Positions 8,636-12,599 of a stretch of DNA of 64,000 bases are shown here, one piece after another. Position 1 is the stretch's first letter; every line of letters begins with the position of its first letter. Source of the stretch: Clavibacter sepedonicus (lineage in GTDB: Bacteria; Actinomycetota; Actinomycetes; Actinomycetales; Microbacteriaceae); assembly GCF_000069225.1 (NCBI RefSeq), contig NC_010407.1, forward strand, positions 2,666,001 through 2,730,000, in the 5' to 3' direction. The position numbers were made by a program, and so were the translations under genes. The notes beneath the pieces are model-generated. The model saw only the letters and a program-made list of their open reading frames with translations, made no database searches and was not told where the DNA came from.

Positions 8636-8899
8636 GTGATCGTCCCCGTGGAGCTCTTCGCCGCCGCCGCCGCGCTCGGTCGCACGACCGACACGCTCGA
8701 CCTGCCGTCCGCGGCCGTCCTCGGCGACCTGATGGACGCGCTCGGCACGCGGGCCGCCGCGTCGGAGGATCCCGCGAACGCCGCCGCTGTCCTCGCCCGC
8801 TGCACCTACCTCGTCGAGGGCGTCGCGACCACCGACCGCGACGCGCCCCTCACGGCCGGCAGCGCGGTGGACGTGCTGCCGCCGTTCTCGGGCGGCTGA
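8636..8899 (+). CDS. moaD: MoaD-like small sulfur-carrier subunit of molybdopterin synthase
   Basis: An 87-aa ubiquitin-fold protein ending in the diagnostic FSGG tail (VDVLPPFSGG), which is thiocarboxylated and supplies sulfur for the dithiolene of molybdopterin. It starts at GTG 8636, one base after the moaA stop, so the two are cotranscribed. The MoeB-like adenylyltransferase at 20468-21655 is the likely activating enzyme. The low-GC foreign island begins right after its stop codon. Confidence 0.88.
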   Translation: MIVPVELFAAAAALGRTTDTLDLPSAAVLGDLMDALGTRAAASEDPANAAAVLARCTYLVEGVATTDRDAPLTAGSAVDVLPPFSGG

Positions 8900-9087
8900 T
8901 CCGATTTTCGGCATACTCGAGGACCGCCACGACTCCAGCCGCCAGCCGCTGATGGGCCGCAGAACCACGTAAAGCGATCGCGTTGTGCATTACTCGCAGC
9001 CGACCTGGCGCGATCGGGAGCATCGGCGCTTGGATTCACCCCTGACCTGGGGGCCTAACGGACTAGAGCGACCTTTATGCTGTAAGC
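8900..9087. other. Left junction of the low-GC island, noncoding
   Basis: 188 bases between moaD and the island ATPase. Composition drops from native high GC to mixed here. I see no tRNA, integrase remnant or clear attachment repeat shared with the right end. Confidence 0.5.
9076..9081 (+). promoter_or_regulatory. -10 box driving the ATPase/HNH operon
   Basis: TATGCT followed by exactly six bases (GTAAGC) and GTG at 9088, the same leaderless geometry as in native genes of this window. It supports GTG 9088, not ATG 9177, as the intended start of the ATPase. No convincing -35 box is seen. Confidence 0.6.
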
Positions 9088-10751
9088 GTGAATGACACAC
9101 AGAGCGTGACTTTCGTGACGGAGGCCGTCAAGCCAATTAGCGATTCAAGGAACGTTATCGCTTTTGTACGTGCGGAATGGAACGACTGTTTACATGGCGC
9201 ACTCTTGTTTACGCTTACTACTATGACCACCAGGGATCGCGATTTGAAATCGGTGGCGTCAAGATTGCCAAGCTCGACTTCGAATACAAAAACGACTCGG
9301 AGCATACCACGCCATTACCCACCCAATTCACGACTCTAGATAATACATATGCGCCCCTTGGGCAAGATGAATCGTACTACGCAAACTTGTTAAACCTCTT
9401 CGGCGTAAAGGAGACGAAACGCATCCTCGCTGCGGTCGGTGATATGGCCGTAGACCTGCGACGTTTCGAAAAGTTGCGGTCAGAACCGGTGGTATTCGAG
9501 TCGCTCATGCGCGACATTACCGGGAGTACCGTCACGGGCACTTACGCCCGCATACTCGCGGGTGACGGGCAGGATTCGTTTGCGCTTAAATACACAAGGC
9601 CTTCCACTAACGACCTAGCGGAATCAGTAATCCTTGACTTTGCGGTTCAGCCGGAATCTTTCCCGCCGACTAACGTACACGTGTTGGTTGGACGCAACGG
9701 TTCCGGTAAGACGACGCACCTTCGGGATATGGCCCTATCGCTTCTTGGGCCGAGCGCCGGTGAGAGTATCGGAACGTTTCGCGAACACGCCGACGTTTTG
9801 CCGGACATTGCCAACGTAGTCTATGTTTCCTTTAGTGCATTTGATAACGCGATCTTGCCGCATGAAGACAGCGTTGACAAATACGAAGTACGATATTCAT
9901 ACGTGGGCCTTGTAACGTCCGCTCCGGAGAATGAGACCAGCAGAACGTTTGGCACCAGCCATTCGGAAGACCATATTTCAATCGAGTCAAGAGCCCGGGA
10001 TAAGATTGTGCCTACTCGGACACGGGCACCAGAAGAATTGGCTGAAGAGTTCGCGCGAAGCGCTTGGGTTGTAGTCCGTGAGAAATCGCGAGGTCTCTGG
10101 CGCGAAGCGCTTGAGACCCTAGAGTCGGACCCAATCTTTGCAGACGCAGACGTATCATCACTGGCCCAGCTGCATCACGAACCTTCATTCAAGCAGTTTG
10201 CTGCGCACGCCAAGATCATCTACGGGACATTAAGTTCTGGCCACAAGATAGTTCTACTCACTGTGACCAGGCTCGCTCAAAGCGTGACAGAGAAAAGCCT
10301 CGTGCTGATAGACGAACCCGAAGGGCATCTGCACCCTCCCCTTCTGTCAGCGTTTATCCGCACACTGTCAAACTTGATGAGCAGTCGCAATGGAATCGCC
10401 ATTGTCGCGACGCACTCTCCGGTGGTCTTGCAAGAAGTACCTAGGAACTCCGCGTGGAAGATTCGGCGGGTCGCAGGAGTATCTCGTGCTAATCGACTTA
10501 AGGTGGAGTCATTTGGAGAAAACATAGGCGTGTTGACATCATCGGTTTTTGGCCTAGAGGTCTCCGCTTCTGGATTTCATAAGCTACTTCTTGACACCGC
10601 GGCCGAGGTACGTGACTTCTACCTAGTCCTTGAACGATTCAATGGGCAAATTGGCGGGGACGGGAGGGCCTTATTGTTATCTTGGTTTGCGAACCAAGGC
10701 CTGCCCGTGAGGTCATTCAAAGCAAATCGTGATTGGCCAGGCTACGAGTAA
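9088..10751 (+). CDS. Septu-like (PtuA-type) SMC/ABC ATPase, N-terminus frameshifted
   Basis: A large P-loop ATPase of the SMC/OLD-like ABC class that pairs with HNH nucleases. Numbered from ATG 9177 (524 aa): Walker A VGRNGSGKTT at ~171-180, signature LSSGHKIVLLT at ~352-362, Walker B LVLIDEPEGHLHP at ~375-387, switch-His VATHSPVVLQEV at ~410-421. The leaderless GTG 9088 opens a frame whose residues ~25-34 (VIAFVRAEWND) run into the family's N-terminal W-x-D-W-x-x-[FY]-x-T motif, but the frame then fails. LFTWRTLVYAYYYDHQG continues in the frame of ATG 9177. Adding one G after 'gactg' near 9188 restores EWNDWFTWRT. So either the gene has a one-base deletion, or the base is a sequencing error, or a shorter protein is made from 9177. 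Codon use is AT-rich, unlike all neighbours. Its TAA overlaps the HNH ATG. Confidence 0.8.
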
Positions 10752-11572
10752 TGCGAATCTCCTCAGCGCCGGCCGTCAATGTCGCATCCGTCCTCGACCG
10801 CTTATCATCCGGTGTTCGTATTGATACCGTCCACGCCTCCCGTAGCATGTTAATAAGGGCCGAGAAGACCTATAACTATTACTTGAGTCAGCAGGCCGCC
10901 ACCAACGTTCCAACGGTTAATGCCGGCATCAGCTCGTCGACGGCAAAAAGCGTTAGGTGGGCTTACAAAAATCACCTTCGCTCTAGGAAAAGTGCTGGCC
11001 GGGAAATTTATGCCCTCTTGCGATCCCTAGCCGACTTGTGCCCAACTTGTCGAGTAAGAGATGCTGTGGCGCTCGATCACTACTTGCCGAAGGAAACATA
11101 TCCTACATACGCGATCCAGCCAACGAATCTAGTCCCTATATGCACGTCGTGCAACGACAAAAAGTGGCACAAGCAAGCATCAAGCATTTATGATCAATTC
11201 TTACATCCGTATTTTGATGACTTACATGATGACTCATGGTTGATCGCCTCTGCCGTTAGGGGTGCGGGTCGATCTGTAACTTATAGCGTCGCGGCACAAC
11301 ACTTTTCAGACCCAATTCTCCAAAAACGCGTCGAGTTTCACCTTGAGTTTTTTGGACTTTCGCTCCTGTATGCCTCGAAGGCTAGTACCTATGTTGGAGG
11401 ACATATAGCAATGCTTCAAGACGCTCATGCTAAAGGTGACCCCGAACATGTCAGCGACTTTCTATTCACTTTAAGTAGCTCGGTACAAATCTTCGGCGAA
11501 GAACCGTGGGTTGCAGCCGCACTTGCAGCTTGGGCAGCGGACTTGGAGTTTTGCGACGAAGGGTGGTACTAG
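10751..11572 (+). CDS. Septu-like (PtuB-type) HNH endonuclease
   Basis: A 273-aa protein. An HNH domain sits at ~95-140: zinc pair CPTC (97-100), catalytic-type LDHYLPKETYP with His110, then NLVPICTSCNDKKWH supplying Asn126, the second zinc pair CTSC (131-134) and Asn135. The LDHYLPK...NL-P-C--CN--K layout is that of HNH effectors found next to SMC-like ATPases in Septu-type anti-phage systems. The C-terminal ~130 residues are not recognised. I chose ATG 10751 because it shares its A with the ATPase stop (TAATG); an in-frame TTG at 10733 is less likely. Low GC and AT-ending codons mark recent transfer. Expected role: DNA or RNA cleavage triggered by the ATPase during phage infection (inference from family). 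Confidence 0.8.
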   Translation: MRISSAPAVNVASVLDRLSSGVRIDTVHASRSMLIRAEKTYNYYLSQQAATNVPTVNAGISSSTAKSVRWAYKNHLRSRKSAGREIYALLRSLADLCPTCRVRDAVALDHYLPKETYPTYAIQPTNLVPICTSCNDKKWHKQASSIYDQFLHPYFDDLHDDSWLIASAVRGAGRSVTYSVAAQHFSDPILQKRVEFHLEFFGLSLLYASKASTYVGGHIAMLQDAHAKGDPEHVSDFLFTLSSSVQIFGEEPWVAAALAAWAADLEFCDEGWY

Positions 11573-12119
11573 CTTCTTAAATCTGCCTAAGGTGCATTTA
11601 TGAAAGAATTGCGACCCGTGTGCAAAAGGCTATGACCGATGGGCCGGTCATGGTGGCCGATGCTTATGTCTTGCTTCAGATATCCGGCGTCCTGAATAGA
11701 CAACTGGTCCGCCGGAGAATCTGGCGAGATGGGCAGATTTACTGCCACCCTTACCCAACTTGCTGTTAAAACAACTTGCGTTTACCGTCGATTATTAGTC
11801 AGAGGCTTATGTGCTTCGTATGGCCGCACACTTGTGACGATAAGTGCTGCAAGCAGGCAAAATTGTCTCCAACGTCCTGTTGTCCAGATTGGGTTTAACA
11901 ACGGCGAAACACGTGACCGTCCGAGTGATCCGACGGCAGTCAAGCATCCTGCGAGTGCCGTGCCTGCCTAACCTGCTGCACCCGCCCCGGCGAGAGATTC
12001 CCGATCACCGACCGCGTCGAGCAAATCCCGGCTGGCAGAATCTCGGGCTTGCGCATGCCATGCCCGCGTGCCTCAGCCGCACTCCGATCCTGCCGAACCG
12101 GGACAGCGATTGAACGGCG
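11573..12119. other. Right part of the low-GC island, no convincing gene
   Basis: 547 bases between the HNH gene and the VOC gene. GC rises towards the right end. One short frame (about 11581-11766) has coding-like text around a M at 11632 but no family I can name, and other frames are broken. This looks like decayed accessory DNA or the junction itself. No tRNA, terminator hairpin of note, or att-like repeat was found. Confidence 0.45.
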
Positions 12120-12599
12120 TCAGCGCCCGTCGTACGCGGCCTGCAGCTCGGCCACGACGAGGCGGCCCATGCCCATCATCGCGGCCATCGCGCGCGCCGC
12201 GCCCTCGGGGTCGGGCCCGCCGATCGTGGTCGCCATCGCCTCCGGGACCACCTGCCACCAGAATCCCCAGCGGTCGCGCACCCAGCCGCAGCGGCCCTCC
12301 GTCCCGCCGTCGGCGAACGCGTCCCAGTAGCGGTCGACCTCCTGCTGGTCCGCAGCGGAGATCGACAGGGACACCGCCTCGGTCGCCTGCATGCCGGGGC
12401 CGCCGTTGAGCAGGCGGTGCGGCTGGCCGTCGAGCTCGAGGTCGACCACGAGGGCCGTGCCGCGCAGGGCCGGGTCGGGGAAGTCGTCCGGGTAGCGCGA
12501 GGTGTCGAGGATCCGCGAGCCCGGGAACAGGTCGACGTAGAACCGCGCCGCCTCCTCGATCCCCTCGCCGAACCAGAGGGTGGGGGTGATGCGCGACAT
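12120..12599 (-). CDS. VOC family protein (PhnB/3-demethylubiquinone methyltransferase-like fold)
   Basis: A 159-aa protein of the glyoxalase/VOC fold, '3-dmu-9_3-mt'/PhnB type. Seen motifs: TPTLWFGEGIEEAARFYVDLFP at the N-terminus, a central LDGQPHRLLNGGP, and WDAFADGG followed by CGWVRDRWGFWWQVVPEAM. The paired beta-alpha-beta-beta-beta units are as expected. The substrate is unknown for most members. GAGGAG precedes ATG 12599. It is the first native gene right of the foreign island. Confidence 0.85.
   Translation of the reverse strand: MSRITPTLWFGEGIEEAARFYVDLFPGSRILDTSRYPDDFPDPALRGTALVVDLELDGQPHRLLNGGPGMQATEAVSLSISAADQQEVDRYWDAFADGGTEGRCGWVRDRWGFWWQVVPEAMATTIGGPDPEGAARAMAAMMGMGRLVVAELQAAYDGR

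Follow-up and report, generated by a model that had tools for sequence, protein, structure and literature searches.

The stretch of DNA from the potato pathogen Clavibacter sepedonicus considered here (contig NC_010407.1, positions 2,666,001 to 2,730,000; 64,000 nucleotides in all, hereafter the window) carries, directly behind moaD, an AT-rich island with two overlapping genes encoding an ABC-type ATPase and an HNH nuclease. The reading that we favour, and consider probable, is that this is a horizontally acquired Septu-like pair, of the family that includes the PADLOC candidate PDC-M01 and the Ea59/Ea31 proteins of phage lambda, in which the N-terminal reading frame of the ATPase is broken. 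The features concerned are:

9177 to 10751, forward strand: ABC-type ATPase open reading frame (ORF) of 524 amino acids, PDC-M01A-, PtuA- and Ea59-like (PADLOC model PDLC04235, 510.6 bits)
10751 to 11572, forward strand: intact gene for an HNH nuclease of 273 amino acids, PDC-M01B-, PtuB- and Ea31-like (PADLOC model PDLC04264, 205.8 bits)
9088 to 9186, forward strand: remnant of the ATPase N-terminus, out of frame with the rest and collinear with the N-termini of relatives up to a W-[DN]-D-W motif

An earlier, sequence-only reading of this DNA had recognised two real genes and proposed a PtuA/PtuB pair of the Septu type, and the elements on which it relied are all present: the overlap at TAATG, the Walker A motif VGRNGSGKTT, the signature LSSGH and LVLIDEPEGHLHP in the ATPase, and two CxxC pairs flanking LDHYLPK in the HNH protein. 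Over 52 aligned rows (the window protein, 42 of 59 locus proteins and 9 database proteins) the invariant HNH residues are C97, C100, D109, H110, N126, C131 and C134. The Septu-like assignment is borne out by the PADLOC models, by the best solved folds, which are those of PtuB and PtuA, and by strict pairing in relatives. What that reading missed are the disruption of the ATPase frame, the presence of the same pair in lambda and the use of moaD as an insertion hotspot.

In PADLOC profile searches of both proteins the two PDC-M01 models listed above gave nearly full-length matches and were the best in the library, while one PtuA1 model (PDLC00282) also scored high against the ATPase, at 460.8 bits, the next PtuA1 model reaching only 74.6 bits. 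The same PDLC00282 model scores 610.8 bits against lambda Ea59, and with the PDC-M01 models the scores are 667 bits for Ea59 and 375 bits for Ea31. Lambda and the window also have two PHROGs in common, phrog_8066 (387.2 bits with the window ATPase, profile positions 30-518 of 522) and phrog_10378 (119.8 bits with the window HNH protein, positions 63-230 of 296). Because lambda scores on the PDC-M01 models and shares these PHROGs, the window pair forms one family with PDC-M01 and Ea59/Ea31. From PDC-M01 the window pair differs only in the out-of-frame N-terminal segment of its ATPase, with no difference in kind. Ea59 is 35% identical to the window ATPase over nearly its whole length (the alignment covers 96% of the query) and Ea31 30% identical to the HNH protein over 126 residues; ea59 overlaps ea31, which is annotated as an HNH endonuclease, so that gene order and gene overlap are as in the window, although in Ea59, unlike the window ATPase, the N-terminal segment is in frame.

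The ATPase had also been suspected of belonging to a clade apart from the best-known PtuA. Such a separation is supported by profile scores (461 against 75 bits in PADLOC) and by folds, not by a tree; the NCBIfam PtuA model (NF041760, a retron effector) gives 38.4 bits with the window ATPase, short of its cut-off of 500. The clade itself, however, is not new, being already known as PDC-M01 or the lambda Ea59/Ea31 family. For the ATPase, sequence searches of the PDB returned ten matches (best E 0.0017); the HNH protein had none. Two PADLOC PtuA1 models, each run on 296 genomes of the phylum, found nothing, but 14 control genomes were also negative and the result therefore shows no absence.

The two genes travel together across a wide range of hosts. 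Translated searches matched the ATPase on 93 plasmid and 24 phage records, and the genome contigs returned 63 loci, 60 of them true relatives and three generic ATPases without a partner. By blastp an HNH ORF lies downstream of the ATPase in all 60 true genome loci. With hidden Markov models the pair was found at 59 of these 60, the exception (L096) failing a distance rule only, as its stop-to-stop HNH ORF starts far upstream. The HNH profile was built partly from the same genome loci, and the independent counts are those for viral contigs (43 of 46 loci, L132-L177, the remaining three ending at a contig edge), for plasmids (6/6 loci fetched from the 93 records with a match) and for the host taxonomic family (6/6 loci, representing five genes, since two loci are one gene of genome G416). 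On one Roseinatronobacter plasmid (L131, 10499-11688) an IS3 transposase is annotated between the ATPase and HNH genes.

The distribution of the pair is nonetheless patchy. The genome loci fall in Pseudomonadota, Bacillota, Actinomycetota, Verrucomicrobiota, Acidobacteriota, Chloroflexota and Campylobacterota, whereas within the host family only 6 of 398 drawn genomes, the window's included, are positive at E 1e-30 (6 of 85 genera), and none of the 17 other genomes of the genus holds a real relative of the ATPase, four giving short stretches at E 7e-5 or weaker. The absence from all 17 supports reading the island as horizontally acquired, which is probable and agrees with the sequence-only reading. 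In a tree of 124 rows, made by a quick method and with many open forks, the window protein belongs to a set of 7 rows (support 99) nested in one of 17 (support 99). This larger set consists of database and host-family proteins, and its named members are actinobacterial. Lambda falls in a separate 41-row set (support 100) that is rich in viral contigs. As the two lie in different branches, the window pair probably does not derive from a lambda-like phage.

The predicted folds point in the same direction as the profiles. The best solved-structure matches are PtuB for the HNH protein and PtuA for the ATPase, in both cases within PtuB/PtuA complexes; the PtuB-like fold spans most of the HNH protein and the ATPase head is PtuA-like, whereas the extra N-terminal region of the ATPase lies outside the coverage of the aligned PtuA structures. 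None of the 125 matches of the HNH model in BFVD reached E <=0.001. The window shares with Septu type I of E. coli (PDB 8eea) the two-gene operon in which an ABC ATPase precedes an HNH protein, but identity to Septu entries in the structural alignments is only 11-22%, and the Walker lysine is residue 43 in E. coli PtuA, according to the available text of PMC13096335, compared with residue 178 in the window ORF. The top structural matches of both proteins are PtuA/PtuB of Retron I-A (Ec78/Eco7 and Ec83); unlike this Septu type II arrangement, the window island has no third gene of reverse-transcriptase size and no match in Rfam.

These likenesses allow a mechanism to be proposed by analogy for intact members of the family, in which we infer that an ATP-controlled ATPase restrains an HNH nuclease until infection. 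The ABC-type ATPase would probably dimerise through its ATP-bound heads and keep the PtuB-like protein in an inactive assembly; a signal of infection, for which the extra N-terminal region is perhaps the sensor, would free or activate the nuclease, and the active enzyme would cut nucleic acid, either DNA or a transfer RNA (tRNA), and so stop phage growth. In the portions of the literature available, defence by E. coli Septu is reported to need the active sites of both the ATPase and the HNH protein, with tRNA-Tyr as the target (PMC13096335), and tRNA-Tyr is also reported as the target of retron-Eco7 (PMC11555353), the latter source citing nicked DNA in the case of another Septu. PDC-M01 is reported to stand among unpublished candidates in a survey of Bacillus cereus genomes, where 41 of its calls coincide with Septu calls (PMC11811056).

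A role other than defence, in which the pair processes DNA for phages or plasmids (recombination, repair or breakdown of host DNA) and islands carry stray copies of it, is highly improbable. It would account for carriage of the family by 46 viral contigs as well as lambda, PHROGs assigns the ATPase family no function, and ea59 and ea31 of lambda are reported, in the part of PMC10695390 that was available, to have been scored non-essential, which fits any accessory role. It sits poorly, however, with the occurrence of the family in the chromosomes of several phyla, with folds closest to PtuA/PtuB complexes, and with the known defence families that adjoin the pair at some relatives' loci, an observation made without a matched control. 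The neighbour scans took 97 of the 104 genome and 84 of the 122 viral neighbours picked, two of those dropped being pieces of the ATPase. Integrases, likewise counted without a matched control, make up 6 of the 84 viral neighbours (tyrosine integrases) and 4 of the 97 genome neighbours. Among the viral neighbours are DNA methylases and a restriction endonuclease, which fits accessory genes of temperate phages.

The window copy departs from its family at the start of the ATPase. The relatives, when aligned, have a segment that ends in W-[DN]-D-W ahead of the point where the match to the window ORF begins, and the W and second D of this motif are found in 49 of 51 aligned rows (49 of the 50 relatives, drawn from 37 of 54 locus proteins plus 13 database proteins), the window ORF and L107 being the two without them. 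The sequence-only reading had placed a W-x-D-W-x-x-[FY]-x-T motif within the ATPase, but in the window its halves lie in two frames, EWND in that of position 9088 and the second half in that of 9177. Searched alone, the 33-residue leader gives a single match below E 0.1 (P0012, residues 2-29, E 0.022), which at 23.1 bits is weak when taken alone; the maximum among 50 shuffles was 19.7 bits. Upstream of 9177, the ATPase frame contains no ATG, GTG or TTG back to the preceding stop codon, and no ribosome-binding site before 9177 is evident by eye.

It is most improbable that the gene is intact and the break an error of sequencing or assembly. In favour of such an error, the change is small and confined to one spot, and the leader is still recognisable; on the other side, the 90% cluster of the 524-residue form comprises three sequences on 19 contigs, with the next listed protein only 56% identical. 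A longer member inside this cluster is possible. Its longest contig, at 3,266,016 bases, is not the window's chromosome (the window's assembly has 3 contigs and 3,403,786 bases). The 90% cluster of the HNH protein holds one sequence on 38 contigs. Because the ATPase cluster recurs on 19 contigs and that of the HNH protein on 38, the break is probably genuine. Pseudogenes are reported to number 114 in the host (available text of PMC5358740), and those of the type strain are reported to stem mostly from nonsense mutation, frameshift or partial deletion (available text of PMC9190974).

Whether the break inactivates the gene is less certain. In an alternative that is unlikely but deserves some weight, this is a working defence system translated from the ATG at 9177, the out-of-frame segment being dispensable. 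The Walker, signature and HNH residues are all intact downstream of the break, the ATPase ORF is otherwise open over 524 residues and its cluster extends over 19 contigs, and most of the ATPase fold is predicted well without the segment. Moreover, in the records of its two closest relatives (P0002 and P0003) the protein begins immediately ahead of an in-frame W-N-D-W and the longer leader is absent. The intact catalytic motifs and these two short relatives are the points that weigh against an inactive copy. Conversely, P0002 and P0003 are themselves among the 49 rows that retain the W and D, the lack of an evident ribosome-binding site tells against a start at 9177, residues 1-4 of the ATPase model fall below 50 in predicted local distance difference test (pLDDT) score, and pseudogenes, including frameshifted ones, are numerous in the host genome. 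On balance the sequence suggests that the window ATPase is truncated and that this copy is probably inactive. In five of the 60 genome relatives (L110, L113, L114, L115 and L116) the ATPase is split over at least two ORFs with the HNH ORF open, and the window is therefore not alone in having a broken ATPase next to an HNH gene that is still open.

The island that carries the pair and its surroundings comprise:

8636 to 8899, forward strand: moaD (PF02597), bounding the island on the left with its 3' end; present in all 17 other genomes of the genus
8900 to 12119, no strand: AT-rich island, probably horizontally acquired, marked by its base composition and by the lack of a real ATPase relative in those 17 genomes
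11943 to 12038, forward strand: degenerate second partial copy of moaD at the right edge of the island, matching 8766-8862 (72% identity, E 5.2e-6)
12120 to 12599, reverse strand: flanking gene outside the island (PF06983); similar copies, two of which are partial, occur at 13 of 17 genus loci

The left edge of the 3.2 kb island follows directly on the stop codon of moaD, and its right end is the 3' end of the convergent gene at 12120 to 12599, whose sole Pfam match at E 0.001 is PF06983 and which is taken to be the VOC gene of the sequence-only reading. Pfam identifies the other flank as MoaA (PF04055, PF06463) and the ThiS/MoaD-type protein. The AT-rich character described from the sequence alone is real: the island has a guanine plus cytosine (GC) content of 52.9%, compared with a mean of 73.2% (standard deviation 2.4, minimum 68.8%) over 545 overlapping 3-kb segments taken elsewhere in the 64 kb. 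The range of 35-47% GC given for its sixty-base lines is true of part of it, with 11 of 54 island lines at or below 47% (0 of 1012 elsewhere in the window) and the remainder above. GC at third codon positions is 56% in the ATPase gene and 51% in the HNH gene, compared with 95-98% in moaA, moaD and the gene at 12120-12599. As had been stated, no tRNA was found in the island, nor was there any Rfam match. All listed ORFs of the island besides the pair are shorter than 100 residues, and the small ORFs at 11729-11971 and 11844-12113, which have no Pfam match at E 0.01, were treated as non-coding.

The 3' end of moaD is an insertion hotspot in the genus. All 17 relatives match the window at 86-94% identity along moaD and diverge from it once the gene ends. 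The empty moaD-VOC junction anticipated in other Clavibacter did not materialise, as no junction equal to both island flanks was seen in relatives and the site is variable. In the first 250 bases after moaD, GC is below 60% in three relatives (54-57%) and in the window (59%), 63% in G016 and 72-82% in the remaining relatives, such that 4 of 18 genus genomes are AT-rich directly after moaD, not always with the same gene content. In the window, the partial copy of moaD has an alignment score of 56, compared with at most 36 in 15 other window stretches. No integrase was recognised at the site, where it was looked for via the ORF list and family scans only. The simplest reading is of repeated insertion at the 3' end of moaD, in two cases with part of moaD duplicated.

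The occupants of the site in other genomes are varied. In G005 (L039, 3300-5792) the site is taken by an AT-rich two-gene cassette on the opposite strand, encoding 501 and up to 243 amino acids without a Pfam or PADLOC match; to its right lies a second, 95% identical copy of the final 111 bases of moaD. In G008 (L041, 1018-1884) an AT-rich DUF2971 gene with a weak PADLOC match to PDC-S31 (28 bits) lies directly after moaD, and the DNA after moaD in G015 (L047) begins like that of G008; neither genome shows a second moaD copy, the score of 31 obtained for each lying inside the control range. A DUF2971 gene is also found near the ATPase/HNH pair on a Janthinobacterium plasmid (L130).

A broader proposal, which is conceivable but falls short of even likelihood, is that lambda carries a Septu-like defence system, Ea59/Ea31, in its b region, which is dispensable, that the window pair represents an actinobacterial branch sensing through an N-terminal domain foreign to known PtuA, and that the 3' end of moaD is a hotspot for cassettes without an integrase of their own. 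No description of lambda Ea59/Ea31 as a defence system was found in titles and the beginnings of abstracts, a search that left subscription papers and most preprints outside its coverage, and prior reports to this effect are quite possible.

The window instance is thus one more defence cassette, probably decayed, and its wider significance lies with the family, which ties the PADLOC candidate PDC-M01 to the lambda genes ea59 and ea31. The old question of the roles of the genes in the lambda b region thereby becomes directly testable in laboratory E. coli, and the family suggests a variant of Septu in which a distinct N-terminal region is the candidate sensor.
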